Source: Marinitoga sp. 38H-ov
GTDB taxonomy: Bacteria > Thermotogota > Thermotogae > Petrotogales > Petrotogaceae
Assembly: GCF_011057715.1 (NCBI RefSeq)
Contig: NZ_LNGH01000036.1
Coordinates: forward strand, 1-49,800
Length of the DNA stretch: 49,800 nt
Reading direction: 5' to 3'
This document shows positions 24,213 to 42,933 of this stretch, in pieces. The notes under the pieces were generated by a model. It did not search any database. It had not been told where the DNA came from and saw only the letters and a program-made list of their open reading frames with translations. The position numbers and the translations under genes are program-made. Position 1 is the stretch's first letter. Every line of letters begins with the position of its first letter.

Positions 24213-24227
24213 TAATTTGTATTAATT

Positions 24228-24255
24228 GATAGCGGCTTGGCCGCTATCTTTATTT
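24228..24255 (+). terminator. terminator of the glycine cleavage operon
   Basis: GATAGCGGC pairs with GCCGCTATC around TTG and is followed by a T-rich tail. Confidence 0.9.
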
Positions 24256-24267
24256 AGAGGTGAAAAT

Positions 24268-25988: not shown

Positions 25989-26012
25989 TCCGGCTTTGCC
26001 GGATTATATTTT
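25984..26012 (+). terminator. terminator after the ABC pseudogene
   Basis: ATAATCCGGC pairs with GCCGGATTAT around TTT and runs into ATTTTT. Confidence 0.88.
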
Positions 26013-26063
26013 TAGTAAATTTTAAAAAAATCAAGATTGATATTAAAAATTTTTAAGTTATAG

Positions 26064-26092
26064 TTGACAAAGTTTAGATATTATGATATACT
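26064..26092 (+). promoter_or_regulatory. strong sigma-70 promoter
   Basis: TTGACA at 26064-26069 and TATACT at 26087-26092 with a 17-bp spacer drive the small basic peptide gene and the MFS gene. Confidence 0.8.
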
Positions 26093-26168
26093 TATTATAG
26101 ATTTTAAATATTCTGCTTTAAATTATTAAAAAAATAAAAAATATCTTTAAAAATATGGAGGTGAAGAA

Positions 26169-26279
26169 ATGAAATATAAAAAAAGATATAAAAGAAGATA
26201 TAAAAAAAATTCATATTATGAAGGATTTGATCAAATAGAAGAAATAAAAGATGTATTAATAGAAATGAAAAGGTACTAG
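26169..26279 (+). CDS. 36-residue basic, tyrosine-rich peptide
   Basis: A short frame with a good ribosome binding site (GGAGGTGA) lies between a near-perfect promoter and the MFS gene. It encodes a very basic first half (MKYKKRYKRRYKKNSYY) and an acidic helical second half (FDQIEEIKDVLIEMKRY). It ends 10 nt before the MFS start, with TAGGAG giving the next ribosome binding site. It may be a leader peptide controlling the exporter or a small regulatory protein. I do not recognise a family. Confidence 0.6.
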   Translation: MKYKKRYKRRYKKNSYYEGFDQIEEIKDVLIEMKRY

Positions 26280-26289
26280 GAGTGAAAAG

Positions 26290-27546
26290 ATGAATAATAA
26301 TCAAAAAAGAAATTTTTTGCTTTTTGTAATTGGTAGAATAGTTTCATTACTAGGTAGTGGTATTCAGATGGTAGCAATGCCATTATATATATTGGATTTA
26401 ACGGGATCGGGAACAAAAATGGGGTTATTTGCTATGGTGAGCATGTTGCCTGCACTAATAATTGCTCCTTTTGCAGGTGTTTTAGGAGATAGATTTAATA
26501 GAAGAAATATTATGGTTATTATGGATTATTTAAGAGGGGTATTGATATTATTTTTAGCATATTTAACTTTTACAAATAAAATTACTTTAGGTATTTTATT
26601 TTCTATGCAAGTAATTTTATCTTTATTTGATAGTTTGTTTGGAGCAGCTACTAGTGCAATGATACCAGATCTTGTTCCAGAAAAAGATTTAATGAAGGCA
26701 ATTTCTGCAACTGAAAGCGCAAGTAGTGCTTCTATGATAGTAGGGCCAGTTTTAGGTGGAGTTATATATGGATTATTAGGAATGAAATGGGTATTTTTGT
26801 TAAATGGGATATCATTTATATTATCGGCTTTTAGTGAGATGTTTATTAAATATAGCAAAACAAGTAAGTTAGATTCAAAAATAAATACAAAAATAATATT
26901 TGGAGATATTAAAGATTCTATTAAATTTATTTTTGAAAATAATGTTCTAAGAAATTTAATGATAATGGCAATATTTTTAAATTTTTTATTTAATCCAATG
27001 TTTGTGGTATTGTTTCCATATACATTTAGGGAAGTAATTGGATTTTCAGCTCAACAATATGGATTATTAGAAACAATGTGGACATTAGGTATAATGATAG
27101 GGAATATTATTTTGGGTATATTCTTTTCAAATAGTGAAAATAAGAGATTATTAAAAAATGGGATATATGGAATGGTAGGCATGAATTTGTTATTAGCTTT
27201 ATTTTTAATTCCGCAAATTAGAAATAATTTTACTATATGGAAAATATTTATAATTGTTGGTACAATAATTACAATTATGGGATTAACAAATGCTTTTGTT
27301 AATACTCCAATATCAGTATTTTTTCAAAAAATTATTCCAAATGAAAAAAGATCAAAAATATTTTCTGTAATAGGTGTTTTATTTCAAGCAGCAACTCCAA
27401 TCGGTATGGCATTAATGGGTTTTTTTGTAGATAAATATGAGGTTCATACATTATTTATCATATTAGCTATATTAATATTATTAGATGTATTAATTTTTTC
27501 TAAAAAATTAGATAGTATTGATTTAACTCCTTCCCTTGAAAATTAG
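26290..27546 (+). CDS. MFS-family efflux transporter
   Basis: This 418-residue inner-membrane protein has about 12 membrane segments and the MFS loop 2-3 motif GVLGDRFNRR near residues 64-73. The family includes macrolide and other drug exporters. Its substrate is unknown. It is co-transcribed with the small basic peptide gene from the promoter at 26064. The downstream hairpin at 27589-27632 would end transcription. Confidence 0.88.
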   Translation: MNNNQKRNFLLFVIGRIVSLLGSGIQMVAMPLYILDLTGSGTKMGLFAMVSMLPALIIAPFAGVLGDRFNRRNIMVIMDYLRGVLILFLAYLTFTNKITLGILFSMQVILSLFDSLFGAATSAMIPDLVPEKDLMKAISATESASSASMIVGPVLGGVIYGLLGMKWVFLLNGISFILSAFSEMFIKYSKTSKLDSKINTKIIFGDIKDSIKFIFENNVLRNLMIMAIFLNFLFNPMFVVLFPYTFREVIGFSAQQYGLLETMWTLGIMIGNIILGIFFSNSENKRLLKNGIYGMVGMNLLLALFLIPQIRNNFTIWKIFIIVGTIITIMGLTNAFVNTPISVFFQKIIPNEKRSKIFSVIGVLFQAATPIGMALMGFFVDKYEVHTLFIILAILILLDVLIFSKKLDSIDLTPSLEN

Positions 27547-27588
27547 TAAAATACCTCCAATTGATCTGAACTCAAAAATGAAACGATA

Positions 27589-27632
27589 AAAAACACCTCC
27601 GAAAGTGATGAAATAAGTAGGAGGTGTTTTTT
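27589..27632 (+). terminator. hairpin at the MFS end / IS3 remnant edge
   Basis: AAAAACACCTCC pairs with GGAGGTGTTTTT over a 19-nt loop and ends in T6. It can terminate the MFS transcript. It sits right at the start of the IS3 remnant and may have come with it. Confidence 0.6.
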
Positions 27633-27636
27633 AATT

Positions 27637-28260
27637 GCAAAGAAAGGACAGAAGTTTAGGAAGGATTCAGAAGAGTTTAAAGAAGAAGTAGTAAGGGAGA
27701 AAAATTATCGTATCAAACAATGGCAAAAATGTATTAATATATAAAACAAGAGAATAAAAAATACAAAAAGAAGGAATGCAGAGAAAAAATCCGAGGTAAA
27801 TAAATGAATATTTGAGATTATTAAGAAATGGAAAATGAACCTAAAAAAATAAAAATAATGATAAAATAATCTATCCAAATTATGTAAAATAGCGGGATAT
27901 CGAGGAATAGATACAAAAAAGGAATGAAAAAAGATACAGGAGATTTTAGAAGTATATTTTAAATTTAAAGAAGGATATGGATATAGAAGAAATATATTTG
28001 CAAAAAAAATTCAAAAATAATCAATCATAAAAAAATGCTATTTTTTATACTGATAGAGGTTTTCAATATATATAAATTTAGATCAATAATTCAAAGTATT
28101 TAAAATTTCTATTGATAATGCATCAATTGAAAATTTCTTTGAAAATCTGAAATGATTATATTCAAGAATAAAAAACAAATATATTGATATTATAGAAAAT
28201 TACATAATTTCTTGAAAGGTTTCAATCGAGATTAAATAATATGGCCCCAGTATGTACTAG
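27637..28260 (+). pseudogene. IS3-family transposase remnant
   Basis: Broken pieces of both IS3 (IS150-like) frames can be read in order on the plus strand. The start of OrfA lies near 27637 (AKKGQKFRKDSEEFKEEVVR). KFKEGYGYRRN from the OrfB start is near 27960. FYTDRGFQY, holding the second catalytic Asp, is near 28040. DNASIENFFENLK, with the catalytic Glu region, is near 28115. RLNNMAPV of the C-terminus is near 28230. Many stops and frameshifts separate them and a large part of OrfB is lost. No clear terminal repeats remain. Confidence 0.75.
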
Positions 28261-28295
28261 AGCCATGTTGGTAAATTTTTTATTTTTTGTTTTTT

Positions 28296-28431
28296 TAATT
28301 GTACTTCTTTGTTAGAAAATCTACTGTAAACTTCTTTTGAAGTACTGTATCTCCTTTAATTTTTTGTTTTTAAGAATGCTTAATACTGTAATGCCATGCT
28401 TTTTTACCCGCAAGTATAAGAACCTTGTTTT
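28296..28431 (-). pseudogene. serine recombinase fragment
   Basis: On the minus strand a short stretch reads GKKAWHYS, then after a frame break KGDTVLQKKFTVDFLTKK. This resembles the recombinase domain of large serine recombinases (usual form KGD-LLQK-FTVDFLTKK). The catalytic N-terminal domain is absent. A second fragment from the C-terminal part of such a protein lies at 34250-34500, on the same strand but on the other side of the bacteriocin genes. Confidence 0.55.
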
Positions 28432-28658
28432 CTAAAAATTTTTATATGACAAAGTATATATGTGTTATGTTTGTATCAAAAAACATGATTTCTCATAGCG
28501 TCTGATTATTGTATCAATGGAACATTCAAATATGTTGGAGTCGATGTGACTTGAAACAGCGACTCCAAACTATGATTATTATATAACGATTATTCTAAAA
28601 ATCGATCTAAATTTTAAAATATATATTGCTATATATTTGTATATTAAAAGATAATAAT
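28432..28658. other. non-coding gap with one hairpin
   Basis: No gene is seen. A 9-bp stem, TTGGAGTCG (28535-28543) with CGACTCCAA (28560-28568), stands out of the AT-rich background. It has no T run on either side. Confidence 0.5.
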
Positions 28659-28679
28659 TCAAAATAATCGTGAGGATAG

Positions 28680-29175
28680 GTAATATTGGACATTTATTTG
28701 GAGCTTCTTCGCCTTCGTATATATATATCCACAATTTAGACATATCCATTTTACTTCTTCATCCTTCTTAAATACTTTATTATTTTCAATATTTGATAAT
28801 AAATTTCTAAATCTTTCTTCGTGATGTTTCTCTATTTCAGCAATCCTTCTAAAAGCATCTGCTATTAAAGCAAAACCTTCTTCAGCTATTTTAGCAAATT
28901 CAGGATATAATTTTGTCCATTCTTCATTTTCACCATTTGCAGAATACATTAAATTAGTTTTTGTATCGCTTAATCCTACAGGAAAATCAACCTTAATATC
29001 AATAATTTCTCCGTCAAGAGATTCTTTCAAGAATTTAAAGAATATTTTTGTGTATTTTTTCTGAAGTTTCTAAAAAAAGTTAGAGATTTGAATGTATCCT
29101 TCCTTCTTACCTACAGAAGCATAATAGGTATATCTATTTCTAGCTTGCGACTCACTCGCAAAAGCTTTCTCTTCT
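28680..29175 (-). pseudogene. rubrerythrin, degraded
   Basis: The readable C-terminal two-thirds shows the di-iron helix motifs ([24 protein letters not shown]) and one rubredoxin knuckle (WICLNCGY). A shift in a TATATA run near 28725 then destroys the second knuckle, which survives out of frame as APNKCP. Upstream, in other frames, the N-terminal piece FASESQARNRYTYYASVGKK and KEGYIQISNFF can still be read. The intact protein would reduce peroxide in anaerobes. At least three frame breaks and the lost start make it non-functional. Confidence 0.8.
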
Positions 29176-29491
29176 AATGATATATTTCTATATAATCCAA
29201 TAATCTATCAATAGGTATTGCTTTTCTAACATCATAATCTTCAGATTTACCTACACCTTTAACCAAAACTTTTATTTTTTTATCTGTTACTTCTACTAAA
29301 ACATATTCTATACTCCATATTCATATTTTTTTGTTTGGGGTAAAATATTTTCCTTTGATTCAGGATAAACTTTTTTAATATAATGTATATAGTTTTTCTA
29401 TTGCTTATTTTTCCTTCGAATTATTAAAGTATACTAAAACGATAATAAAAATAACCAATAATATTGCATTCAAAATAACTCTTAATAGCAT
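29174..29491 (-). pseudogene. broken gene for a small membrane-anchored protein
   Basis: A good ribosome binding site (GAGGAGGT) precedes an ATG at 29491. The product starts with one membrane helix (MLLRVILNAILLVIFIIV) and stops after 28 residues. Two frame changes later the piece KIKVLVKGVGKSEDYDVRK can be read to a stop at 29174. I do not recognise the family. It ends where the rubrerythrin remnant begins. Confidence 0.5.
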
Positions 29492-29580
29492 ATATTACCT
29501 CCTCATATAATTAACGATTTAATAAGATAATTTATATAAAACTTACTCGTAAAATCCAGAAATAATAGTATAAATCCTTT

Positions 29581-29725
29581 TTATATTTGCTTACCAATAT
29601 CAAGAAAAAATTTAAAAAGTGAATTATTTTTTCTTTTAGGCATTTTATAAAATTGTTTTACCTTTTCCCATTCTTCAAGTTTGTTTTTTTTAGGCCCATA
29701 ATAATGATAATTTGAAATACCTTTT
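29581..29725 (-). pseudogene. C-terminal gene fragment, unidentified
   Basis: About 47 codons can be read to a stop at 29581, beginning KGISNYHYYGPKKNKLEEWE and ending FFLDIGKQI. Codon use looks like real coding sequence, but no start or upstream part is found. The family is not recognised. Confidence 0.35.
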
Positions 29726-29859
29726 CTAAATAAGTATTAATAAAGAAAAATTATATATGATGAAAAAACAAGTGATTTTTAATCCAATGATTTAATCCGT
29801 TTTCTGTATAGGAAAATTCGCGCATCATACTCTTTTAGATCTTGCAATTTCATTAAATT

Positions 29860-30120
29860 CATTTATCATTCCTTACCTTTAAACTTTTTTATATCCTTCA
29901 TCATTCTTAATGTTTCAATGTGTATAAACATTGATAAACAAAGAATTTTTGCATCAATCATGTATTTTATAATTTCTACAGTGTTAAAAGTAGAATTAGA
30001 GACCTACTTATAATCTATGCCATTTTCTAAAATAGTTGATAATCCTATTATTTATTTAAATGATTCCGCATAAGAAAAAGTTGATACAAAAATAACTTTG
30101 GTATCATTAAATTTTCATTT
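29860..30120 (-). pseudogene. degraded coding remnant, unidentified
   Basis: Three short readable pieces on the minus strand are separated by stops: VIFVSTFSYAESFK, GLSTILENGIDYK and STFNTVEIIKYMIDAKI. The last continues to a stop near 29870. Together they look like one decayed gene. The family is not recognised. The stretch 30121-30429 holds nothing I can assign. Confidence 0.35.
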
Positions 30121-30429
30121 TATGTTTAAAAATCTAATTTTTTTTAAATTTTTTGAACAAAAAATTTTTTAATTTCAAGCTTTTTGGCATTAGTTACCGA
30201 ATTTAATCTTAAATTACATAGAAAGAACTAATATATTTTCATTTATTCCCTGTGAGTTAAATTCTGTTTATTTGTTAGATTATTATTGACTTTTTAAGTC
30301 GATTGAATGCAGCTTTATTCTTGATTTCCGATTTTATTACTTGACATTACACTATATGTCTTATTAAACTATTTGACATTAAGCTTTATCATCTTTATCT
30401 AATATTTTATTAAACATTTAATTTGCTTT

Positions 30430-31062
30430 TTAACACTCAAATTTTGTAATATTAATTCTTCTTGTAGCAATTTTTTTAAACTCATCTATATGAGTCACCA
30501 TAATAACAGCTTTATTATTTTCCATTGCTTCAAATTTTATTTTTGATATAATTTTTTCTTGAGTCATCTTGTCTAAAGCAGTAAAAGGTTCATCTAATAC
30601 TAAAGCTTTAAAATTTTTTGACATCATTATTGCAAGATATAATTTATTACGAGTTCCTTGTGACAAATTTTTAACTAGTACATCATAATATTGCTCTATG
30701 CCAAAAAGTTCTATATACTCTTTTATTTTAGCATCATAATTATGATTTTCATTAAATAAATTTTTGTAAAATTTAATATTTTCACCAACAGTTAAATATT
30801 CATATAATGTATCTTCACTCAACACAAAAGAAATATTTTTTATTAAATCCTTATGTTCTAATAAATGCTTACCCTCAAAATAAACGTTCTTACCTCCATT
30901 TAATATAGCTCCAATACATTTTAATAAGGTAGTCTTACCAACTCCATTATCCCCTTCAATTAATAAAATTTCACCATTGTTAACTTTAAGATTAAAGTTT
31001 TTTAAAATCGGAATATCTTCATAACCAAAAGTTAAATTTCTTACTTCAATTAAACACTCCAT
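30430..31062 (-). CDS. ABC ATPase of the circular bacteriocin cluster
   Basis: This 210-residue ATP-binding subunit has Walker A GDNGVGKT at residues 37-44, a signature reading LSQGT in place of LSGGQ, Walker B ALVLDEPFTALD and a switch His in VTHIDE. It resembles the CirD/As-48D ATPases that act with the membrane proteins in producing, exporting or resisting circular bacteriocins. It starts 10 nt after the SpoIIM-type gene. It is the last readable gene of the cluster: only a 12-codon frame follows, where circularin clusters carry the small immunity gene. Confidence 0.88.
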   Translation of the reverse strand: MECLIEVRNLTFGYEDIPILKNFNLKVNNGEILLIEGDNGVGKTTLLKCIGAILNGGKNVYFEGKHLLEHKDLIKNISFVLSEDTLYEYLTVGENIKFYKNLFNENHNYDAKIKEYIELFGIEQYYDVLVKNLSQGTRNKLYLAIMMSKNFKALVLDEPFTALDKMTQEKIISKIKFEAMENNKAVIMVTHIDEFKKIATRRINITKFEC

Positions 31063-31072
31063 TTTTCTCCCC

Positions 31073-31672
31073 CTAATTCATAAATTTAATTCTTGAAACT
31101 ATAACTTCTACAATTGCTGCAATAAAAAATAAAATTACTAAAAAAATAATAGACCTTAATATGAATAACCCTAGCTTTATTAATTCACTTAGTAACTTTT
31201 CCTCTCTTTTTGTAACTTTTACAAAAGCATTAAATCCACGAATATACAAAACATATGGAATAACAACTGAATATGACATTCCTAAAAGTTCTATTAAACC
31301 ATGTGGAATCATTTTATAAACAAATATAATCATTGAATGAGAAATCAACGAATTTGATATTGACCCTAACGCAATCACATTTTGAATTAAAACATATAAA
31401 CCATAAATACCTAATGTTATTAATCCTAAAAAAATATTTTGAATAACCAATACTATATTATGTATAAAAACATTAAAAAAACTAACAGATTTTTCATATA
31501 TATCAGATACATCTGGTAATTTGCTGATATTTGTACAAAAAGTAATTGTAAAAATTGCTATTAATGATAATATATAAACAAATATTGTAGCTATTGCAAT
31601 ATTTTTATTTCTTACTATTAGATTTTTTAAATATTTTTGTAAAGTCTGCAGAATAATTACCCCTTTCAACAA
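31073..31672 (-). CDS. SpoIIM/DUF95-family membrane protein
   Basis: This protein of up to 199 residues has about five membrane segments and the family features of stage II sporulation protein M (NIFLGLITLGIYGLY in a helix, then IPHGLIELLG). DUF95 proteins are the most constant partner of circular bacteriocin precursors (CirC and As-48C types) and are thought to help maturation, secretion or immunity. The host type is not spore-forming, which supports the bacteriocin reading. The long frame starts at a TTG at 31672, 68 nt inside the upstream gene. A shorter start after AAAGGGG at about 31665 is possible. Confidence 0.82.
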   Translation of the reverse strand: MLKGVIILQTLQKYLKNLIVRNKNIAIATIFVYILSLIAIFTITFCTNISKLPDVSDIYEKSVSFFNVFIHNIVLVIQNIFLGLITLGIYGLYVLIQNVIALGSISNSLISHSMIIFVYKMIPHGLIELLGMSYSVVIPYVLYIRGFNAFVKVTKREEKLLSELIKLGLFILRSIIFLVILFFIAAIVEVIVSRIKFMN

Positions 31673-33317
31673 ATTCTAAAATATTATTTCTAATTCTCTG
31701 CATTACTAAGTATGTAAAACTTATTGTAATTATTTTAATTGAGCTTATTACTAATACTACAATTGGGATATTAATTTTTTCAAACAGAAGCAAAATTATT
31801 ATAGTAAATATTAATAACACACTTAGTATTCTAAACATTGCGTTTAAAGGATAAAATTCTTTAGTACCATATTGTAATATTTTTGTTTCGTCTAAATACT
31901 TTTCATAATTCTTATAATCCATTCTTGTATATATAAGGTTATTGGTTATATACATCTTAGGTATAAAAATTATTATTAATATAAGTTCTAAAACCAAAAG
32001 TATTATAAACCAAATTGGAGCTCCAAGTATTAAAGAAAAGATGAAAATGCCCCCAACTAATAAAATATAAGAAAATGTTTTCATTATATAAAAAAATATT
32101 ATTTTAGCTTTTAATAATTCTTTAATTTTAACCCCACATGTATTTGCAGTTATTAATGTATTATAGTCTGCAATAAAAGATAAGTTTGCAATCATCTTTA
32201 CACCAGTTGCTGAATTTATGTCTGTAATTAATAGCATCGATGAAAGTATTAACATAACTATATAAGAATTGTTAAATGGATATTTTAAAAATATTAATAT
32301 TACTGCAATTAAAAATGCAAAAGATCTGTCTAATATAAATATATAAAAATAATCTTTAAAATTAAATTTATATATAGAAGCAAACAGCGAAAACTCTTTA
32401 TCTATCATAGTTTTGTAAAAATTATCTAAATTAATAAACTTAAAAGTAATTTTTCTAAATAAACTCAGTAGATAAAAGTTATTAACGCGATACTGATAGT
32501 TTTCTTCATAATTATTATATTTACTATTTATATTTTTTAAAGTTCTTAAAGTAATAAAAATTATTATAATATCAAATATAAATATTATAATATTTATATT
32601 TAAACTATTTTGAATAATTAAATTTCCAACCTGGTTTAAAGAAAGCATTATATTTTGAAATAAACTATACAAAATATTCTTAGATTTTAATTCTAAGCTA
32701 AAAGTAATAAATAATTTAATAAAAAAATCTATGATTAAATAAACGAGTATAGCAGTTGTAGTCATTTCAAATAAATAGCTTAAAAAAGAAAATATACGTT
32801 TAATTTTTATATTTCCAATTTGCATTATAAAACTAAGTGAAAGTAATGCTATATATGTTATAATATACATTAAAATAAAAGCTACTATTTGATAAACTCT
32901 ATAATTTAATACTATACCTAAAATAACTGATAATAATATTACATTATTTTCAATAATGAGATTAATAAACATATTCCCTAATAAAATAACTCTAAACCGT
33001 TCCTTTTCATTTGGGATCTCTAAAATGAAATCATTTCTAAAAAACAATTTCCAGTCTCTATTGTCTATCTTTATAAATGTAGATAATAGAGGAATTATAA
33101 TAATTAAAATGTTTAATGATGGCATTTTTATTAAATATGTTACTAATATAATTGATAAAAATAGCATAAAATAATTTTTTGTAAAATACCATATTCCATA
33201 AAGTATCTTATCGATTTTGTAGCTTTTACTGAGAAATTTATATCTTTCATAAAAATAATTTTTATTAAGATTAAAAAAAAGACTAATATATAGCCTAAAC
33301 ACGTTAACTATACTCAT
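31605..33317 (-). CDS. large membrane protein of the circular bacteriocin cluster
   Basis: This 570-residue protein has many hydrophobic helices (about 12) and little soluble sequence. No family motif can be named from sequence alone. Its size, topology and place between precursor and DUF95 gene match As-48B/CirB, the large membrane proteins of about 560 residues thought to take part in leader removal and ring closure. It could also be read as an ABC permease working with the ATPase encoded two genes later. The ATG follows GTAGGTGATG. Confidence 0.75.
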   Translation of the reverse strand: MSIVNVFRLYISLFFNLNKNYFYERYKFLSKSYKIDKILYGIWYFTKNYFMLFLSIILVTYLIKMPSLNILIIIIPLLSTFIKIDNRDWKLFFRNDFILEIPNEKERFRVILLGNMFINLIIENNVILLSVILGIVLNYRVYQIVAFILMYIITYIALLSLSFIMQIGNIKIKRIFSFLSYLFEMTTTAILVYLIIDFFIKLFITFSLELKSKNILYSLFQNIMLSLNQVGNLIIQNSLNINIIIFIFDIIIIFITLRTLKNINSKYNNYEENYQYRVNNFYLLSLFRKITFKFINLDNFYKTMIDKEFSLFASIYKFNFKDYFYIFILDRSFAFLIAVILIFLKYPFNNSYIVMLILSSMLLITDINSATGVKMIANLSFIADYNTLITANTCGVKIKELLKAKIIFFYIMKTFSYILLVGGIFIFSLILGAPIWFIILLVLELILIIIFIPKMYITNNLIYTRMDYKNYEKYLDETKILQYGTKEFYPLNAMFRILSVLLIFTIIILLLFEKINIPIVVLVISSIKIITISFTYLVMQRIRNNILEFVERGNYSADFTKIFKKSNSKK

Positions 33318-33354
33318 TTCATCACCTACATTTAATTATATAACAATTTAACAA

Positions 33355-33396
33355 TGAATATAGGTAACAACACTTAATCCATTGCTACCTATATTC
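33355..33396 (-). promoter_or_regulatory. stem-loop between precursor and downstream genes
   Basis: GAATATAGGTA at 33355-33365 pairs perfectly with TACCTATATTC at 33386-33396 over a 20-nt loop. It lies between the precursor gene and the large membrane gene. No T run follows it, so it more likely stabilises the precursor mRNA end or slows read-through than fully terminates. Confidence 0.55.
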
Positions 33397-33412
33397 CGCT
33401 TTTAAACTAATC

Positions 33413-33446
<34 letters not shown>

Positions 33447-33475
33447 TTTTATTAAATAATTCACTTAAATTATTC

Positions 33476-33697
33476 TTAAAGAAGAATTGCGGCTTTTCTA
33501 GATAAACCTTTTATTGCTTCTCTTAATCCCATTTTTACTGCTTGTTTCATTAATGCAGCAACTCCACCACTTACAATACCAGCTACTAAAAATCCAGCAT
33601 CAATCATCCATGCCCACCAAGCAGCGCCTGTTAGGTAATCATAAATTAAATTTCCTGTTGACCAACTTACACCAAGCACTTCAATAATTTTTAACAT
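33476..33697 (-). CDS. circular bacteriocin precursor (AS-48/circularin-like)
   Basis: This 73-residue peptide has a very short leader (about MLKIIEV or less) and a hydrophobic core that begins LGVSWSTGNLIYDY. It then has a helix, a central glycine turn (AGIVSGGVAALM) and a basic amphipathic C-terminal helix (KQAVKMGLREAIKGLSRK) ending in AAILL. AS-48, circularin A and uberolysin share this plan: 60-70 residues, a saposin-like helical bundle, ISxGG-type turn, cationic helix 4, hydrophobic last residues, no cysteine. The mature peptide would be joined head to tail and act on membranes. The ribosome binding site GGAGGGAGG is strong. Confidence 0.85.
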   Translation of the reverse strand: MLKIIEVLGVSWSTGNLIYDYLTGAAWWAWMIDAGFLVAGIVSGGVAALMKQAVKMGLREAIKGLSRKAAILL

Positions 33698-33733
33698 TTG
33701 CCTCCCTCCTTCATTTAAATAATAATGTTAATT

Positions 33734-33761
33734 ATTATGATAATATATTTATACAAATCAA
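33734..33761 (-). promoter_or_regulatory. promoter of the bacteriocin precursor
   Basis: On the minus strand, TTGATT (33761-33756) and CATAAT (33739-33734) are 16 bp apart and about 40 nt upstream of the precursor start. The -35 box lies inside a perfect 16-bp palindrome. Confidence 0.55.
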
Positions 33762-33771
33762 CCGGTTGATT
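33756..33771. promoter_or_regulatory. palindromic operator candidate
   Basis: AATCAACCGGTTGATT is perfectly self-complementary over 16 bp and is GC-rich against its surroundings. It covers the -35 box of the precursor promoter, where a dimeric repressor such as a TetR-type protein would block transcription. No regulator gene lies next to it. Confidence 0.6.
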
Positions 33772-34249
33772 ATATACAAAATCATAAATTATTAATATTT
33801 TTTGAACTAATTGTTCATTTACATCTACAATTAACTCATCTAATACTGTCCTTAACTATTTTAGATACTGTTACATTGTATAGTATTATTGGTTGCACAT
33901 TATTCATCCCTACTTAAAATGTTAATATTACTACATGCCCAATCTTTTTTAAGTTATTTTTATTTAATAACTTTCCTGTTATTTCATTTCTTTCTCAATA
34001 AAATAATATTACTTATTTTTAACTCTTACCCATATCTATATTAAATATAAAATTCTTTTTAAAATTTACAGATAAATTCATCTTATTTTTTGTGAAGATT
34101 TATATTATATATATCCAGTCAATAATAAAATTTCTTTTATTTACTACATAATTCTACATATATCTTAACGTTAATCTATCAATAATTCGTGTATAATTCA
34201 ATTTACATCTAACTTTATTTTGACACATTAAAAGTTACTAAACGTTCAT
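33772..34249. other. AT-rich gap without recognisable genes
   Basis: All frames are broken by stops and no ribosome binding site with a useful frame is seen. It probably consists of decayed sequence upstream of the bacteriocin promoter. Confidence 0.5.
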
Positions 34250-34500
34250 AGCCCCCTTTTTTATTTCTTCTTCATTACTTCTACAAAAGTTGTTTTCCCA
34301 TCTCTACTCACAACTACCTTATCTATTGTTTCTATCCAAAGCTACTCGTCAAATTTTGTTATTATTTTCCTGTTCTTTTGGTTCCTTTAAAAACTCTAAA
34401 CTCTTCTCTTCTCTGTACTTTGTTCTAATTGCTTTTTCAATATCATTTCAGTTTCCTTATTTATATTTTCATACTTTTCAACTAAAGCCTGAATTTTCCA
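34250..34500 (-). pseudogene. serine recombinase C-terminal fragment
   Basis: The minus strand reads ALVEKYENINKETEMILKKQ, a coiled-coil-like stretch. After frame breaks it reads KFDE, a stop, then LWIETIDKVVVSRDGKTTF. This is the usual end of large serine recombinases (FDE-LW-ETVDKV-V-DGK-TF-FKNG). It is too broken to function. The stretch 34501-35020 has nothing further that I can assign. Confidence 0.5.
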
Positions 34501-35025
34501 TTATACTCATCTTAGTCTAAAGCCATATAAAATTATCCAATATTTTTACTTTATATAAATTACTATTATAAAGTATTATTTGTGAAAAAAATCTTAAACT
34601 TATATTATCAAAAAAAATTTCATTTTAAAAGATTTGTTTATTCTTTTAAGTTCCTTTGTAAAAGCTCTTGCAAAAAATCAGTAGCTATTGATAATAAATT
34701 ACTTATGTTAGAAGTATACTTACATATAGTTTTTTATTTTCATTAATATTTCCAATACTCATTTGCAAATTAGTATTTATTTTGTTCGCATAATAAAATG
34801 TTTATTTCCGTATTTCCCTGGATAAAATTTAAAGCATCCATGTTACCTTCCGTAGTCATAAATTTAAAGTGAAAAATTCTTTTCCATGGACAAAAAAATT
34901 TTACCTTATTTTATTAAAAAAAAAGAATACATTAATTTTATTTTAAATATTGATAAAAATATTATCCAATATTTTAATATTAGAAATTTTTTTCTTAAAA
35001 AAAATATATATTTAACTAAAGAAAT

Positions 35026-35047
35026 ATCCCATCTTGCCAGATGGGAT
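35026..35047 (-). terminator. terminator of the beta-glucan operon
   Basis: ATCCCATC pairs with GATGGGAT around TTGCCA, immediately after the GH3 stop codon. On the minus strand it is followed by a moderately T-rich stretch. Confidence 0.7.
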
Positions 35048-35050
35048 TTA

Positions 35051-37141
35051 TTATAAGTCAATTTTTTCAATTAATCTAATGTCTCTAGAAGAAGCACCAA
35101 CCCTAATCTCATATTGTCCATGTTCTAAAATCCAACCTTCATGGTAACTAGATAAATCTTTAATATTTATTTTAATATTAATTTTTTGAAATTCTCCTGG
35201 ATTTAATAATTTTGTTTTTTCAAATCCTTTAAGTTCTTGGAAAGGTTTATCTATTTTTCCCTTTGGAGCTCGTATATAAATTTGAGAAATTTCTTTTCCT
35301 GGGAATCCGCCAATATTTTTTACGTTAAATGAAATAAATAATTTTTCATTATCTTTTTTAATATCTAAATTTGAATATTCAAATTTAGTATATGATAAAC
35401 CATATCCAAATTCATATAAAGGTTCTTTTTTAAATGTATCAAAATATCTATATCCAACATAAATTCCTTCGTCATATATAACCTCATCTCCATTTACAGG
35501 AAATGGTAATGAAGGTAGATCTTCAAATCTTTTTGCAATTGTTAAAGCTAATTTTCCTGATGGAGAATGATTTCCTTTTACAATATCAGCAACAGCTCTT
35601 CCCGTTTCTTGGCCTGCTTGCCATATTAGCATTATTCCATCTACAAGTTCTTCCCAAGTTGCCATTTCAATTGGTGATCCAATATTTAAAAGAATACCTA
35701 CTTTTTTATTTCTCTTTCTAAATTCTTTTGAAACCTCTTTTATTAATTTTATTTCATCATCGTATAAGTAAAAATCTTTAATATCAATATCAAAAAATTC
35801 TCCAGATATTCTGCTAATAACTATAATTGCCAAATCATTATTATCGGCGTAATAAGAAATATTATCAATAACGTTTTGGGGTAATCTTGGATATAATGTA
35901 TGTCCTAAATCATTATGATATGGTTTATATTTTTCTTTTCGTAATTCTTCAATTTTATTTTTATATATATTATATAGTTTTTCATCAAAATCAATATTTT
36001 TTTCTTTAAAACCATCAATTATGTTAATTACATACTTTGGATGAGTGTCGCCGCTTCCTAAACCGCCTTTAATTGTTTCAATTTGAGCTGTACCAAATAC
36101 AGCTACTTTTTTATCTTTTATAGGAAAAACATCATTATTTTTTAATAACACAATTCCTTCTAATGCAGCATTATATGCTGTTTTTGCATGTTCATCTAAA
36201 TTAGGATTATTTGAATAATTATAATTATTATATTTAGGTGTTTTTATAACTAAATTCAATAAGTTTCTTATAGCTTCATCAATATCTTCTTCAGTTAATA
36301 TACCTTCATTTAATCCTTTTTTTATTTCTTCTCTTTCATCAATTCTATAATTTAAGACTTGATAAGATTTTCCTGGCATAATTAAATCATTTCCGGCTTT
36401 TACTTGATGTGCTCCAGAATCACCTGCAAACCAATCGCTCATTACTAAACCATCAAATCCCCATTCTTCTCTTAAAATCTTTTTTATTAAGTACTCGCTT
36501 TGAGAACAATAATATCCATTAACCTTATTATATGCTGTCATAACTGTCCAAGGTTTTGCTTTTAATGCAATTTCAAAACTTTTTAAATATATTTCTCTTA
36601 ATGCTCTTTCTGAAACAATAGTATCTATTTTCATTCTATTTGTTTCCTGATTGTTTGCAACAAAATGTTTAATAGATGTTCCAACTCCTTTTGATTGAAC
36701 TCCTTCAACAAAGCTAGCTGCCATTTCTCCAGAAACAAGCGGATCTTCAGAATAATATTCAAAGTTTCTACCACCTAATGGATTCCTTTGAATATTTAAA
36801 GCAGGGGCTAATAATACATCAACACCATATTCTTTAGTTTCTTCCCCCATTGCTTCTCCAACTTCTCTAAGAATGTCTCTATTCCAAGTTGAAGCTAACA
36901 TAGATTCAATAGGGAATGAAGTTGCATAGTATTTATTATTTTCTCTATCAGGGAAAATTCTTAAACCGGCAGGGCCGTCAGCTAGATAAATATCTGGTAA
37001 TCCCTTAACCCCACGAATAATTCCTACTGTTCCTCTAACTTCAACATCATCATTACCAAATTGACCAGGTAATCCTGGACCAACTATAAAATCTAGTTTT
37101 TCATCTAATGTCATGTTATTAATAAAATCTTCAATATTCAT
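35051..37141 (-). CDS. beta-glucosidase, GH3
   Basis: This 696-residue enzyme splits glucose from the ends of beta-linked oligosaccharides. The GH3 N-terminal barrel carries the nucleophile D236 in GLVMSDW and the substrate motifs ADGPAG (54-59) and KHFVANNQE (158-166). The alpha/beta sandwich domain follows (about 330-570), and a fibronectin type III-like domain ends the protein. No signal peptide is seen, so it acts in the cytoplasm on imported oligosaccharides. It overlaps the LacI gene by 11 nt and is the last gene of the operon. Confidence 0.94.
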   Translation of the reverse strand: MNIEDFINNMTLDEKLDFIVGPGLPGQFGNDDVEVRGTVGIIRGVKGLPDIYLADGPAGLRIFPDRENNKYYATSFPIESMLASTWNRDILREVGEAMGEETKEYGVDVLLAPALNIQRNPLGGRNFEYYSEDPLVSGEMAASFVEGVQSKGVGTSIKHFVANNQETNRMKIDTIVSERALREIYLKSFEIALKAKPWTVMTAYNKVNGYYCSQSEYLIKKILREEWGFDGLVMSDWFAGDSGAHQVKAGNDLIMPGKSYQVLNYRIDEREEIKKGLNEGILTEEDIDEAIRNLLNLVIKTPKYNNYNYSNNPNLDEHAKTAYNAALEGIVLLKNNDVFPIKDKKVAVFGTAQIETIKGGLGSGDTHPKYVINIIDGFKEKNIDFDEKLYNIYKNKIEELRKEKYKPYHNDLGHTLYPRLPQNVIDNISYYADNNDLAIIVISRISGEFFDIDIKDFYLYDDEIKLIKEVSKEFRKRNKKVGILLNIGSPIEMATWEELVDGIMLIWQAGQETGRAVADIVKGNHSPSGKLALTIAKRFEDLPSLPFPVNGDEVIYDEGIYVGYRYFDTFKKEPLYEFGYGLSYTKFEYSNLDIKKDNEKLFISFNVKNIGGFPGKEISQIYIRAPKGKIDKPFQELKGFEKTKLLNPGEFQKINIKINIKDLSSYHEGWILEHGQYEIRVGASSRDIRLIEKIDL

Positions 37142-38138
37142 TATTAATCCTCCTCACACTATTTCTTTCAATTAAGGTTGTTGGAAGAACAACGTTTTTA
37201 GGTAATCTCTTTCTCTTATTTGTAATTCTTTCAATTAATATTTCTGTAGCTGTTATGCCTATTTCTTCTCTAGGTTGCTTAATTGTAGTAAGTTTTGGAT
37301 TTACAAATTCAGCAAAAGGAGAATCGTCAAATCCAATAATAGAAACATCATCTGGTATTTTATAACCATAGCTTTTTAAAGCATCCATTGCACCAAACGC
37401 GGTCCAGTCATTAACGGCAAAAACAGCTGTAAAGTTTAAAGGATTTTTTGCTAAATATGAATAAATTGCATCACTTCCGTCATTTGGATTATATCCTTCA
37501 GTTTCAGAAAAAATAACATTCAAATCAGATTTTTTATACATAAATTTTCTGATCCCTTTTAATCTTTCAATAGCTGCAGGAGAATTATTAGGACCTCTAA
37601 TTACAAATATATTTCTATGTCCATTTTTATATAAATATTCAATAGCCTTATATGCTCCACCTTCATTATCTACATTAACAACATCAAAATTGATCTCTTC
37701 AACATTAAAATCCATAACCACAATAGGAACTCCGCTGTTAATAAACCTATCAATTAATTTAGTATCTCCATAGAATTCTGCTAAAATTATTCCGTCAACT
37801 TTTCTTTTAAAATATTGATCAAGAATATTTTTTTCATTTAAAGGGTCATTTTTTGGAATAGCCAACATTATGTCAAAACCCTTTTCATATGCAAAACTTT
37901 CAATTGCCATAACAATATCGCTATAATGATAACCTCTAATATCCGGCACTAAAACACCTATAGTTTTGAATAATATATTATTACTAAAAGAAGGTTTTGG
38001 CTTATAATTTAATTTTTTAATAGCTTTTAAAACTCTTTTTCGTGTTTCAGCAGAAACATTTTCACTTCCATTTAATACGCGTGAAACCGTCGCAACAGAA
38101 ACATTTGAAAGTTTAGCAACATCTTTTATATTTGCCAT
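37131..38138 (-). CDS. LacI-family repressor of the glucan operon
   Basis: This 335-residue regulator has the LacI helix-turn-helix and hinge at residues 3-60 (IKDVAKLSNVSVATVSRVLN). A periplasmic-binding-type effector domain follows. It lies between the GH16 and GH3 genes and therefore likely senses an intracellular breakdown product of the glucan, such as laminaribiose, and controls this operon. Its operator may lie upstream of the first gene, which here is replaced by IS110 sequence. Confidence 0.92.
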   Translation of the reverse strand: MANIKDVAKLSNVSVATVSRVLNGSENVSAETRKRVLKAIKKLNYKPKPSFSNNILFKTIGVLVPDIRGYHYSDIVMAIESFAYEKGFDIMLAIPKNDPLNEKNILDQYFKRKVDGIILAEFYGDTKLIDRFINSGVPIVVMDFNVEEINFDVVNVDNEGGAYKAIEYLYKNGHRNIFVIRGPNNSPAAIERLKGIRKFMYKKSDLNVIFSETEGYNPNDGSDAIYSYLAKNPLNFTAVFAVNDWTAFGAMDALKSYGYKIPDDVSIIGFDDSPFAEFVNPKLTTIKQPREEIGITATEILIERITNKRKRLPKNVVLPTTLIERNSVRRINNEY

Positions 38139-38153
38139 AATATCACCTCAAAA

Positions 38154-38981
38154 TTAATCCTCTTTTTTTTGCCAAACTTTTATATAGTCCACATACATTT
38201 TTGCAGGAAACTTTGTTCTATAATCAGGATATCCGGGCCAATTTCCACCAACAGCTAGATTTACTATAAAAAAGAAATAGTTATCAAATACCCAATTTAA
38301 TCCTCTTTTCTTTATAACATCTTTTTTTACTGTTGAATAAACATTTCCATCAACTAAAAAAGATATTTGATTTTCATCCCATTCTAAGCCAAATGTGTGA
38401 AAATTATCTACAAAATTTGAATCATAATCTGTATATTTTCTTGATATTCCATTTTTCCCAGAGTATCCTGGACCATGAACTGTACCGTATACAGAATATT
38501 TATCATGACCTAAAAATTCTACTATATCAATTTCTCCACACAATGGCCAACCAACATAAGTAATATTATTTCCTAGTAACCAAATTGCAGGCCATAATCC
38601 TTTTCCAAAAGGAAATTTTGCTCTAGCTTCAATTTTTCCATATTTTATTTTAAACTTACCTTGAGTTTTTATTCTGCTAGAAGTATAATTATATGAGCCA
38701 AATGAATCATATTTTTTTTCTTTTTTAGCTTCAATTACTAAATAACCATTTTCTATATATGCATTATCTTCTGTATAATATTGTAATTCATTATTTCCCC
38801 ATCCTGGATTTCTAGGGTGTCCATTACCAATTTCAAATTTCCAAATATCAGTGTTAATTTCATTAAAATCTTCTTTCCAAACTAGCTCCCAATTTGACAT
38901 TCCATCATCTCCATAAATAAATCTATTGGTGCATCCTAATAATGGTAAAATAATTATGAGTAAAAACACTAATTTTTTCAT
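38154..38981 (-). CDS. endo-beta-1,3(4)-glucanase, GH16, lipoprotein
   Basis: This protein of about 275 residues is a laminarinase or lichenase. A lipoprotein signal (LLIIILPLLGC, lipid on C17) anchors it outside the cytoplasmic membrane. The catalytic motif is EIDIVEF with nucleophile E150, D152 and acid/base E155. The insert E-I-V form without the lichenase deletion fits the 1,3-glucanase branch. The ATG at 38981 is chosen over a frame start 42 nt upstream because GGGGAGTG precedes it and the signal peptide begins there. It starts 4 nt after the permease stop. Confidence 0.93.
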   Translation of the reverse strand: MKKLVFLLIIILPLLGCTNRFIYGDDGMSNWELVWKEDFNEINTDIWKFEIGNGHPRNPGWGNNELQYYTEDNAYIENGYLVIEAKKEKKYDSFGSYNYTSSRIKTQGKFKIKYGKIEARAKFPFGKGLWPAIWLLGNNITYVGWPLCGEIDIVEFLGHDKYSVYGTVHGPGYSGKNGISRKYTDYDSNFVDNFHTFGLEWDENQISFLVDGNVYSTVKKDVIKKRGLNWVFDNYFFFIVNLAVGGNWPGYPDYRTKFPAKMYVDYIKVWQKKED

Positions 38982-38985
38982 AAAA

Positions 38986-39888
38986 TCACTCCCCGGTAAT
39001 TCCAGCTTTTTCAATACTTTCAATAAATTGCCTTTGTAAGAATAAATAAGTAATTAATAGCGGTAAAATAGTTATTAATGTCGCAGCCATTCTTATACCT
39101 TCATTTAATCTATTAGTAGAGTTTCCAATCTGTGATGGAAACATTTCAGCGTATTTTGCTACAAAGTCTCTTAATGCAAGAGGTAATGTTTTTAATGAAT
39201 TTCCAACAAGTAATCCTGATAGCAATGTTTCATTCCAATACCATACTAAAGAGAATATAAAAGTTGTAACAATAGCTGGGATTGATAATGGTAGCATTAT
39301 CTTCCAAAAGATTTGAGTTTGTGTTGCCCCATCAATTTCAGCAGCTTCATCTAATGCCCTTGGTAACATACTAAAGAAATTGTAATATAACAATATGAAA
39401 ATTGTACTTTTTATACCTTGACCAAATAAGGTTGGTAAAAATGATGCCAATGGTGTACCTGCAATTTTTAGTCTACTAAATAACATATACTTTGTAACTA
39501 AGGTAGTTTGTGCTGGAATTAAAAATGTTAATAATACTAATACAAAAAATAATTTTTTTAAAGGGAATTCAAATCTTGCCAAACCATATGCTATTATTGC
39601 AGTACTTAAAGTTTGTAAAATAGCTGGTACTAAAGATAAATAAACACTATTAAAAAATGTTTTGGTTACTTCTAAAACATCAAAAGCTAATCTAAAGTTT
39701 CTCAATGAAGGATGTACTGGTAACCATCTAATTGTGGGATTTATTAAATCTTCAGAGCTCATGAAACTAGTAGAAATCATATAAAGCATAGGATATAAAT
39801 ATGCATATCCAACGCCTATTAATATTACATAGATTAATATTTTTGTGTTTAAATATCTTTTTGCATTTAAATATTTTCTATATTTCAT
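38986..39888 (-). CDS. sugar ABC permease, MalG type (second pair)
   Basis: This 300-residue membrane protein has six membrane segments and the ATPase-contacting EAA loop (LDEAAEIDGATQTQIFWKIM) near residue 195. It belongs to the CUT1 oligosaccharide uptake family. It overlaps the MalF-type gene by 4 nt and forms the second permease pair of this operon. Confidence 0.92.
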   Translation of the reverse strand: MKYRKYLNAKRYLNTKILIYVILIGVGYAYLYPMLYMISTSFMSSEDLINPTIRWLPVHPSLRNFRLAFDVLEVTKTFFNSVYLSLVPAILQTLSTAIIAYGLARFEFPLKKLFFVLVLLTFLIPAQTTLVTKYMLFSRLKIAGTPLASFLPTLFGQGIKSTIFILLYYNFFSMLPRALDEAAEIDGATQTQIFWKIMLPLSIPAIVTTFIFSLVWYWNETLLSGLLVGNSLKTLPLALRDFVAKYAEMFPSQIGNSTNRLNEGIRMAATLITILPLLITYLFLQRQFIESIEKAGITGE

Positions 39889-40748
39889 ACTCTACGCCTC
39901 TCTTTTAATAAAAGATATGTAATCGCAATAATAATCGCAATAGATATAAAATAAATCCATGATAATGCAGATGAATAAGAGTATGGTTTATCAATGTCAA
40001 ACATATGCATAGTTATAACTCCATTGATAGAATTATTAGCAAATGAAGCGAGTTCCATTATTGTATATATAGCATTTACAAGTATAAAAGGTCTTATTAA
40101 AGGTAAAGTAATTTTCCAAAAAATTATCCATGAATTAGCGCCATCGATCTTTGCAGCTTCATATACACTTGAGTTGATTTTTTGCAAACCTGCTAAAAAG
40201 AATATAATTTGAACCCCTGAAAACCATAGTATTAATACTAAATTATCAAACATATACAAAAAAGGGAAACTTATTCTATCTGGTAAAGTAGTGAAAAATT
40301 TATAAATGAAATATTTACCTGGATCTACAATTCTAGCAGCATTATTTGAAACTAATTCTGAAACAACTGGACCACTAATTATAACAACAGGTAAAAAATA
40401 CAATAATCTAAAAAATGCTCTAGCTTTAATTTGTGAGTTTAAAAGAATAGCTATTATTAATGAAAATATAAGTATTAATGGAACTGATAATATTATATTT
40501 ATTAAAGTATCTGTTAAAGCAATAGGGAAATTAATATCACCTCTAAAAGCATATAAATAATGTTTTAAACCAACAAATGTTGATTCAATTCCTGTTGATT
40601 TGAATTTAACATTGAAAAAACTCAAATATAATGAATAAAAAAATGGATATGCAGTAAAAAATATGAATCCTATTATCCAAGGAGAAAAAAACAAATATCC
40701 AAAAAATGCTTTTTTAGTTTTCATTTTCATAATTATTAACCCCTTCAT
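39885..40748 (-). CDS. sugar ABC permease, MalF type (second pair)
   Basis: This 287-residue membrane protein has six segments and the EAA loop VYEAAKIDGANSWIIFWKIT. The likely start is the ATG at 40730 (MKMKTKK), as the frame's first six residues lie inside the preceding gene. It would pair with the MalG-type product of the next gene. No second solute-binding protein accompanies this pair. Confidence 0.9.
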   Translation of the reverse strand: MKGLIIMKMKTKKAFFGYLFFSPWIIGFIFFTAYPFFYSLYLSFFNVKFKSTGIESTFVGLKHYLYAFRGDINFPIALTDTLINIILSVPLILIFSLIIAILLNSQIKARAFFRLLYFLPVVIISGPVVSELVSNNAARIVDPGKYFIYKFFTTLPDRISFPFLYMFDNLVLILWFSGVQIIFFLAGLQKINSSVYEAAKIDGANSWIIFWKITLPLIRPFILVNAIYTIMELASFANNSINGVITMHMFDIDKPYSYSSALSWIYFISIAIIIAITYLLLKERRRV

Positions 40749-42933
40749 TAATAATTTTCCATGATTCTGCTTTAACTATAATATTAGTATTATATGCATA
40801 ATCATTATTAGTATAATTAATAATTATAGATTTTCCATTATCATATGTATTTTTTACCACTCCATCTGTTAATACAATTCTGTTTATAATATAATGCCCT
40901 CTGAATTCACTTAAAGCTGAATTAATTTCGTTATATATATTTATTATAGTATCTTTCCAATCATCATATTTTGTTGAAGGATAATCAGCTAAAGCAGTAT
41001 TTCTTAAAAGATAATTATCAATTTCTGTAATTATAAATGATGGATAAGCACCAAAATCAATAGTTTTTAATATATCCAATCTAGAAAAAAATCCTACATT
41101 CATATATGGAGTAAAGTAATCAATATATCCGCTTAAAATAATTTGTAAAAACGGAACAGTATCAGTTTCATATATATATTGACTATTATTCATTGGAATA
41201 TTTAAAAATCCTTTAATATATTTCCATAAGTAATCATTTGGAGAATATAATAATAAATTATTATTTGAGTAATTTTCTATAGTGTTTATAATTAATCTTT
41301 TTGCTTCATCTCTAAATATTTTTTCATCAACATGTAAGTTTCCGTATAATTTGTTTCCAAAATATTTAACTGCAAAATTATTTATTCCATTGTTATTAAA
41401 CATTTCAAATTTTTCTTTTAAATATTTATTAGCAAGTTTAATATTTGTATAAAAGGATCTATAATACCATAATTGTTTATTATCCCTATCTTCATATATA
41501 GGGTATTGAGATAGATTTATTCCAGCTTCATTTCCTTTGTTTATTTGTAAATCGTTAACCTTAGTTACATTATTTACAAAGAAAATATTTGAATTATTTT
41601 TAGCATATTCAATTATTTCTCTATTGTATACTTTATTTTGTTTTATTTTATTTCCATGTGCGCCGTTTTTTTGCCAGCCATCAATTAATATCAATTTGTT
41701 TTCAATATTTAATTCATTTAATGATTTTAAGAACTCCAAAGAAGAGGTTTTTAAATTTGAAAAACCTAATAGCTTTTTTTCTATATCATTTAAAACTATT
41801 TCTAAAGCTAAAGGTATTTTTTTATTAATTTCTTTATTTTCAACATTATTGAACAGTAATTTTTTATATTTTTTTGCAATACCAACATAATTAGCATCAT
41901 CGCCAGTTAAAAAGTATAAGCTTAATTTAGCATCAAAACTATTTTTTTCTTTTTGTGCAATTTGAACACCATTTCCACTTCTGCTTGTTGGTTGTAAATA
42001 TTTTTGCCTATAAATAAATTTAACAGATGCCCAATTATAACCGCTAAGTGCTCCACTTGGATATGCAACAATTGAAGAGTATTCGGCTCCAGAATTAATC
42101 ACACTAAAAAATGCATTTTGATTAACTCCATGAACTATTCCATATACAGGTACATGTATTATAGGTTCTTCTTTTAAAAAATCATTTGGCCTATTTACAT
42201 TTAAATTATTAGCAAAGGCTAAATTTTCTATGCCATAATCTTTTCCGTAAACTCTTTTTTCAAACCAATTTGAATAATTTTTTTCTTTAGAAAACCTTAT
42301 TAATGCTCCAGCACCGTCAGGTAATAATATATACCCAGGTATTTCATCTTCATTAACTGCTCCTAAAAATGGCATTATATATACAGAACCTAATTTAAAC
42401 TCTTTTTCTTCGATAATTGAATCTTTAGGTAAATAAAATTCCAAATGATCATTTTTTAAATATAAAAATAAATTAAATTTAATACCTAATTCTTCTGAAA
42501 AAATATCCCATTTAATACCATTATCAATTATTTCTTCTTTTGAATCTATACCTGTTATATAACTTAATGATTTATCATCAAAATATTCTATACCAATAAT
42601 TGAAGATGCTATATTAGACCAAATTTTGTTTAATCCTGTTAAATTATCAGGATTGCCCCATATATATCCGCTTTTTTTATTCTTAATTCTTATATCTTTT
42701 CCATTTGTATATATTTCAAAATATTCATTTTCTAAAACTAATGTGTAATTTTCTAAACTCAATGAATTTTTTACCTTAGCTAAATTATCAACCTTAGTGT
42801 ATCTATTTGATGAATAAACTTCAGAAAAGGAAATTGTAGTAATTAATAAAACAATTAATACTATAATTTTTGATTTTATTATTCTTAACTTTTCATATGA
42901 TAATTTTGTAAATATATTTTTAGCGAGCATGGT
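40714..42933 (-). CDS. DUF5696-like secreted protein
   Basis: This protein of about 739 residues has one N-terminal membrane or signal helix (about 20-40) and a long extracytoplasmic part. Its motifs recall the DUF5696 family found in glycan-uptake operons: LENEYFEIYTNGKDIRIKNK, GYILLPDGAGALI near the middle and DGWQKNGAHG. The C-terminal half looks like a barrel-type glycosidase fold, but no catalytic pair is certain. The ATG at 42933 is used because AGGAGGT lies 12 nt before it. It overlaps the NHL-Yip1 gene by 14 nt. Function is unknown. Glycan binding or hydrolysis is likely. Confidence 0.72.
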   Translation of the reverse strand, partial: TMLAKNIFTKLSYEKLRIIKSKIIVLIVLLITTISFSEVYSSNRYTKVDNLAKVKNSLSLENYTLVLENEYFEIYTNGKDIRIKNKKSGYIWGNPDNLTGLNKIWSNIASSIIGIEYFDDKSLSYITGIDSKEEIIDNGIKWDIFSEELGIKFNLFLYLKNDHLEFYLPKDSIIEEKEFKLGSVYIMPFLGAVNEDEIPGYILLPDGAGALIRFSKEKNYSNWFEKRVYGKDYGIENLAFANNLNVNRPNDFLKEEPIIHVPVYGIVHGVNQNAFFSVINSGAEYSSIVAYPSGALSGYNWASVKFIYRQKYLQPTSRSGNGVQIAQKEKNSFDAKLSLYFLTGDDANYVGIAKKYKKLLFNNVENKEINKKIPLALEIVLNDIEKKLLGFSNLKTSSLEFLKSLNELNIENKLILIDGWQKNGAHGNKIKQNKVYNREIIEYAKNNSNIFFVNNVTKVNDLQINKGNEAGINLSQYPIYEDRDNKQLWYYRSFYTNIKLANKYLKEKFEMFNNNGINNFAVKYFGNKLYGNLHVDEKIFRDEAKRLIINTIENYSNNNLLLYSPNDYLWKYIKGFLNIPMNNSQYIYETDTVPFLQIILSGYIDYFTPYMNVGFFSRLDILKTIDFGAYPSFIITEIDNYLLRNTALADYPSTKYDDWKDTIINIYNEINSALSEFRGHYIINRIVLTDGVVKNTYDNGKSIIINYTNNDYAYNTNIIVKAESWKIINEGVNNYENEN

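Follow-up and report, generated by a model that had tools for sequence, protein, structure and literature searches.

The window analyzed here, by which we mean the whole stretch of 49,800 nucleotides from Marinitoga sp. 38H-ov, carries a four-gene bacteriocin-like cluster on the reverse strand, preceded by a perfect 16-bp palindrome that lies 58 nt before the precursor gene (Table 1). Among the products is a membrane protein of the SpoIIM family, which we take to be the same family as DUF95. With the DUF95-type protein read in this way, the window holds the three components (precursor, DUF95-type protein and ATPase) by which circular bacteriocin clusters are recognized in an earlier study (PMC8534725), and as in the clusters of AS-48 and uberolysin type described there, the small precursor comes first and the SpoIIM/DUF95-type protein and ATPase follow.

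Table 1. Features of the locus (window coordinates unless a contig is named).
Feature	Position	Strand	Remarks
Island	27552..35038		7,487 bp; sister genome G001 has 22 bp there
Broken middle piece of serine recombinase 2	28310..28432	-	Residues 227-269 of L093 4098-5672; tblastn E 5e-9, 65%
ABC transporter ATPase	30430..31062	-	PF00005, E 6.1e-23
SpoIIM-family (PF01944) membrane protein	31073..31672	-	E 2.3e-12; DUF95 type of circular-bacteriocin clusters
570-aa protein	31605..33317	-	No Pfam match; probably membrane-bound by composition
Bacteriocin-like precursor, 73 aa	33476..33697	-	Relatives in L007 (88%) and L008 (84%)
Promoter of the original prediction, TTGATT-16-CATAAT	33734..33761	-	9 of 12 matches
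Putative -10, CATAAT	33739-33734	-	Belongs to the preceding promoter; inside 33734-33771
Candidate -35, TTGATT	33761-33756	-	Within the palindrome; spacer 16
Perfect 16-bp palindrome, AATCAACCGGTTGATT	33756..33771		Orthologous copy at L010 1278-1293
Homology block to prophage end L010 409-1301	33748..34517	-	61% over 904 columns; ends about 8 nt beyond the palindrome
TATAAT hexamer, candidate -10	33769..33774	-	Last three bases are the first of the palindrome; also at L010 1275-1280
TTAATA, weak candidate -35	33790..33795	-	15 nt 5' of TATAAT; TTGATA at L010 1254-1259
Broken C-terminal piece of serine recombinase 2	34282..34497	-	Residues 444-516 of L093 4098-5672; tblastn E 9e-10, 41%
Terminator hairpin between GH3 gene and island	35026..35047	both	Reported on both strands
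Inverted repeats upstream of precursors	window 33756-33771; L007 7855-7868; L008 2284-2298; L005 1460-1475

Unlike known circular bacteriocins, the window precursor gives no match to PF09221 at E up to 0.1 (nor any NCBIfam match) and its profile matches AS-48 only weakly (E 0.011; L005 is part of the profile), and its cyclization is putative. L005, a distant relative of AS-48 type (30%) from another genus of the host family (genome G007), has a precursor (1501-1725) that matches PF09221 with an E of 3.4e-9; an ATTTGTG-TG-CACAAAT repeat stands close before it. The two closer relatives, in Caproiciproducens sp. MSJ-32 (L007) and an uncultured Lachnospiraceae (L008), came from one scan of genome contigs, whose patterns derived from a single sequence and therefore limited it to close relatives. 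Further searches for the precursor matched one of 397 and one of 225 genomes, in each case the centre genome itself, and found nothing in phages, plasmids and viral contigs, and the 570-residue protein had relatives only in its own genome among 103 of the phylum and none in plasmids or phages. At the DNA level the window is 83% identical to L007 over 33699-30448, a block that starts 2 nt before the start codon, and the dN/dS values of the four cluster genes in this comparison (0.15-0.38 by a simple count) suggest that they are under selection. In L007 the nearly identical precursor is separated by ∼250 nt from a preceding pair of intact large serine recombinases that belong to a prophage (5188-8222), and genes for HlyD-like and MacB-like exporters follow that cluster. 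Recombinase and transposase genes beside circular-bacteriocin clusters, as well as one Thermotogae precursor, are already on record in the earlier study (mSystems 2020, PMC8534725). Among literature titles on circular bacteriocins, Petrotogales bacteriocins and Heliusvirales none dealt with this palindrome, and we found no paper on a Marinitoga bacteriocin.

The cluster sits within an island that the sister genome G001 lacks, its alignments to window positions 24222-27551 (85%) and 35039-49510 (86%) being at places 22 bp apart. This island could be an insertion here or a loss in G001, and from the sequences insertion is favored, because the island matches Clostridia DNA. On the right it borders directly on the GH3 gene's terminator, and because this terminator parts the cluster from that upstream gene, the cluster probably needs its own promoter. 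The island is full of broken genes. By eye, a decayed IS3-like transposase occupies its left end (27600-28270), and a rubrerythrin-like gene at 28579-29030 (PF02915 on 28659-29030, E 2.3e-10) is seemingly frameshifted. The 1.34 kb of upstream DNA matched 16 of 61 relatives, the genome itself included, at E up to 0.001; except for the window itself, these matches were short stretches, AT-rich in most cases, and were taken as noise. No match was found in phages or plasmids, nor did Rfam match anything over 33400-35100. At the far end of the contig, just upstream of the glucan operon, positions 49758-49800 read MLFVGIDVSKDKLD, presumably the start of an IS110-type transposase, and G001 diverges from about there.

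The original prediction had claimed a perfect 16-bp palindrome within 33734-33771, and the palindrome is indeed exact, with the dyad symmetry of a dimeric-repressor operator and CG as its central dinucleotide. The further claim that such a site is unlikely by chance stands for its center and not for its length: a GC-only central tetramer occurs once in the window compared with 0.075 expected per window (by a criterion chosen after the palindrome had been seen), whereas seven perfect palindromes of at least 16 bp are present compared with 4.1 (sd 2.0) on average over 200 first-order Markov sequences, which makes the length alone ordinary for the window. A scan for further genome copies, proposed as a check, brought no second exact one. 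The exact 16-mer is unique in the 2.26-Mb assembly, which gives no hint of a regulon; allowing up to two mismatches gives three sites (one for the reversed control), the other two of which fall within open frames (466 and 438 aa), and at up to one mismatch the 12-bp core has four sites compared with two. Similar counts come from the 21 genomes of the host family, where three (the own genome included) have a site with up to one mismatch compared with two for the reversed control, and from the L007 and L008 genomes, with three places at two mismatches compared with two.

It had also been stated that no regulator is adjacent, which is correct for the immediate neighborhood, although a LacI-family regulator is encoded about 3.4 kb away, at 37131-38138. 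LacI-type operators are often even palindromes centered on CG, and the palindrome might be imagined as an operator of this protein. Such an assignment appears extremely unlikely, given that the regulator has a 92% ortholog in G001, which is without the island and without a match to the palindrome at up to one mismatch, and that the palindrome has a single exact copy in the genome. The LacI-family gene adjoins glucan-use genes that are present in the island-free sister as well, and the 6-bp perfect inverted repeats listed before the glucan genes in the window and in G001 are unlike the palindrome, the window copy of this promoter region running into the contig end. Neither a cognate regulator gene beside the palindrome nor further exact sites in the genome were found.

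We then come to the promoter. The palindrome had been placed over the -35 box of the only promoter candidate for the bacteriocin genes, and the TTGATT hexamer does lie inside it, but this promoter is one of 19 weak sigma-70-like matches in 33300-35060, compared with 16.2 (sd 4.1) in shuffles, so the claim of a sole candidate is unsupported and the promoter evidence is at chance level. The scan required a spacer of 16-18 nt, and TTAATA-15-TATAAT was therefore unlisted. In both the window and the prophage end L010 described below, TATAAT runs over the first three bases of the palindrome with TTAATA or TTGATA 15 nt before it; a TTrATA-TATAAT spacing of 15 is poor, and hexamers mean little in DNA so AT-rich. 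In the AS-48 operon, promoter PA, described with canonical -10 and -35 elements, lies before the precursor and drives a precursor-first operon, and the words palindrome, inverted repeat and operator have no occurrence in the main text of that paper (PLoS One 2014, PMC3942455).

The palindrome is absent upstream of the precursors in L007, L008 and the distant L005, and the 230 nt upstream of the window precursor have no similarity to any of these counterparts (p 0.62-0.98 for comparisons involving the window, in two versions, compared with 0.04-0.08 for L007 against L008). With upstream DNA so unlike, the palindrome falls outside what the three clusters share. An ACCGGTT in L008 (2377-2383), at a similar distance to the start, was rejected as a counterpart, the alignment giving no support (score 17, null mean 22.4). 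Perfect inverted repeats with half-sites of at least 7, each differing in sequence and distance, do stand upstream of all four precursors; by this rule, which was set after the fact, such a repeat is expected at 0.017-0.023 each in Markov sequences and at 0.14 per 250 bp in real intergenic DNA, so that the upstream repeats are mildly more frequent than the intergenic base rate.

Rather, the resemblance lies with the end of a prophage. L010 409-1301 is collinear with window 34517-33748 (E 4e-42 against the island alone), with an alignment score of 112 compared with at most 47 in 200 shuffles and 36 for the best of 232 other window segments; without the palindrome end the score is 88 compared with at most 55. 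The longest exact run in this alignment, 21 nt, falls on the palindrome and the next longest is 12, which in an alignment of 61% identity suggests that the palindrome is under constraint. Because L010 was found by the 16-mer itself, the conservation of its palindrome is biased by the search; searches free of the palindrome, with the recombinase tail and with the open frame of the tail, gave the same contig only and no independent third case. Beyond the palindrome end of the block there is no similarity (p 0.57), and the L010 tail has no match in phages. In L010 the palindrome lies in an 88-aa frame, its flanks resembling the window, and the next gene starts about 270 nt past it, so that a promoter role there is not evident. 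No bacteriocin relative was found in the L010 contig.

The L010 copy also bears on whether the palindrome acts as RNA, either as a weak terminator or as a hairpin closing a small open frame. In L010 an open frame stops 24 nt ahead of it, and a 58-nt segment of the window gives a marginally better fold than shuffled sequence (z -1.49, 17 of 200). Against this, that open frame is without a start codon among the listed genes, other folds are at shuffle level (z 0.33, with 0.25 in L010 and -0.21 for the core), and the palindrome is not among the terminator-like sites, neither a stable GC-rich stem nor a T run after it being present. Hence the palindrome is unlikely to be a terminator, and we give any such hairpin role very little credence.

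L010 overlaps L093, whose genes run from a 484-aa protein that matches no Pfam family through a holin and an amidase to recombinase 1 (435 aa) and recombinase 2 (524 aa), and in L010/L093 the palindrome stands 602 nt after the stop of the second of these tandem large serine recombinases. In the window recombinase 2 is wrecked and the palindrome is intact. Three pieces of the wreck gave no Pfam match, whereas tblastn with an intact relative identified it; with the L007 recombinases, tblastn found only the piece near 28.4 kb. The recombinase 2 pieces flank the bacteriocin cluster on opposite sides, in permuted order. In L007 a holin, an amidase and two recombinases come directly before the bacteriocin cluster, and a second recombinase fragment in L010 (3843-4357) has 87% DNA identity to L007 recombinase 2, linking both prophage ends. 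Together these comparisons make it highly probable that the palindrome was brought in by the tail of a Clostridia-type prophage recombinase module rather than by the bacteriocin genes.

Relatives of recombinase 2 occur in phages deposited as Ca. Heliusvirales (PV036433.1, PV036438.1 and others; 51-59% in eight records) and, at 64% and with the same gene order, in the Peptoclostridium acidaminophilum plasmid EAL2_808p; the order holin, amidase, two large serine recombinases is common to L010/L093, L007 and this plasmid. The likeness to Ca. Heliusvirales is one of recombinase similarity and gene order alone, and unlike the prophage ends in those phages and EAL2_808p, the copy in the window is ruined and surrounds a bacteriocin cluster. 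Unlike L010, none of 12 other relatives (nine phage records out of 153 that matched and three plasmid records out of 87) has the palindrome after recombinase 2, the best scores being 9 to 11 of 16 in up to 1.2 kb downstream of each (two of the 12 stretches were shorter, at 218 and 631 nt). The site is therefore no common feature of this recombinase family.

Wider searches for the string gave no regulon, which we rejected: exact viral matches numbered nine, compared with nine for the reversed and two for the rearranged control. Eight of the nine sit in open frames of at least 112 aa, two pairs of them sharing flanks, and outside the palindrome L010 alone is similar to the window. A pattern of the arms alone had 36 viral places, namely L010 and 35 others that all lie in open frames of at least 105 aa and are without a recombinase-2 match. 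Among 391 genomes of the class of L007, the extended pattern with up to three mismatches had 25 places in 24 genomes compared with eight for the reversed control; 23 of them are in open frames of at least 178 aa and none of the 25 loci has a recombinase-2 match. As a guess, the excess over the control may come from the string reading as common codons (N-Q-P-V-D in one frame).

Given the recombinases, the palindrome might instead mark a recombination junction, where the prophage tail was joined to cargo or host DNA, as an attachment site, a part of one or some other hot spot. Homology with L010 stops within a few bases of the palindrome with nothing beyond, the palindrome follows a recombinase pair in L010 and a remnant of recombinase 2 in the window, and the permuted pieces around the cluster are also in line with such an event. 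However, the site is 602 nt from the recombinase stop in L010 and was not seen in the 12 other records, and its CG-centered perfect symmetry leaves the central dinucleotide without polarity. Serine-integrase sites are expected to have polarity, and the attP of A118 is only pseudo-palindromic (PMC3783163). In addition, 27531-28350 and 34001-35060 share no 12-mer in direct orientation (a core may be very short, however, and not all ends are present), L007 7701-8010 has no repeat of at least 16 with the rest of its contig, and the host assembly yielded no PF07508 recombinase. On balance a junction seems unlikely to us.

Somewhat less doubtful, and still improbable, is that the palindrome is a neutral relic of the prophage tail, a chance survivor without function today, with the bacteriocin genes expressed from other AT-rich sequence. 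The broken genes of the island, the ordinary number of palindromes of this length in the window and the chance-level promoter matches all fit this account, as does the fact that its conservation is seen in a single relative, one that the palindrome itself had turned up, whereas further relatives of the recombinase or of the precursor gave none. The 21 identical bases, with a next longest run of 12, speak against it.

The dimeric-repressor operator of the original prediction is accordingly retained in one respect and given up in another. The 21-nt run in a 61%-identical segment makes a dyad-binding protein a fair guess. A repressor of the bacteriocin genes, on the other hand, is at odds with the lack of the palindrome before the L007 and L008 precursors, with its single exact copy and the failure to find a cognate regulator, with the chance-level promoter, and with a position in L010 after phage recombinases and without a bacteriocin relative. 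The idea of a regulator thus shifts from bacteriocin to phage. The reading that we tentatively prefer, while holding it at somewhat below even confidence, is that of a prophage-derived dyad site for a protein, perhaps an operator over TATAAT, that now stands before a bacteriocin cluster; we infer the protein binding from the sequence. The palindrome would be a conserved binding site, most likely an operator, with its first bases overlapping the putative TATAAT, an arrangement that suits both the dyad and its position, and the protein bound there would have been a dimeric regulator belonging either to the phage or to its former host. Here the phage genes have since been wrecked, which leaves the palindrome before a laterally acquired circular-bacteriocin-like cluster, where it may act as a promoter-operator if a host regulator recognizes it and otherwise as an unregulated promoter region. 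More speculatively, and with a probability that we rate as distinctly low, such a control or recombination site in the tail of a two-recombinase prophage might be a port for plugging in cargo such as a bacteriocin cluster, one that outlives the phage and goes on serving the captured bacteriocin genes, as operator or junction, in a distant phylum.

The elements found here are of known kinds, a prophage end and a circular-bacteriocin-like cluster, and what is unusual is the history of the palindrome, which is recast from a bacteriocin operator to the surviving end of a decayed prophage. Marinitoga sp. 38H-ov carries an apparently intact circular-bacteriocin-like cluster, with 83% DNA identity to a Clostridia one, in an island absent from its sister species. 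Should the site still function, a control or recombination site of phage origin would have been retained for the bacteriocin genes that were captured.
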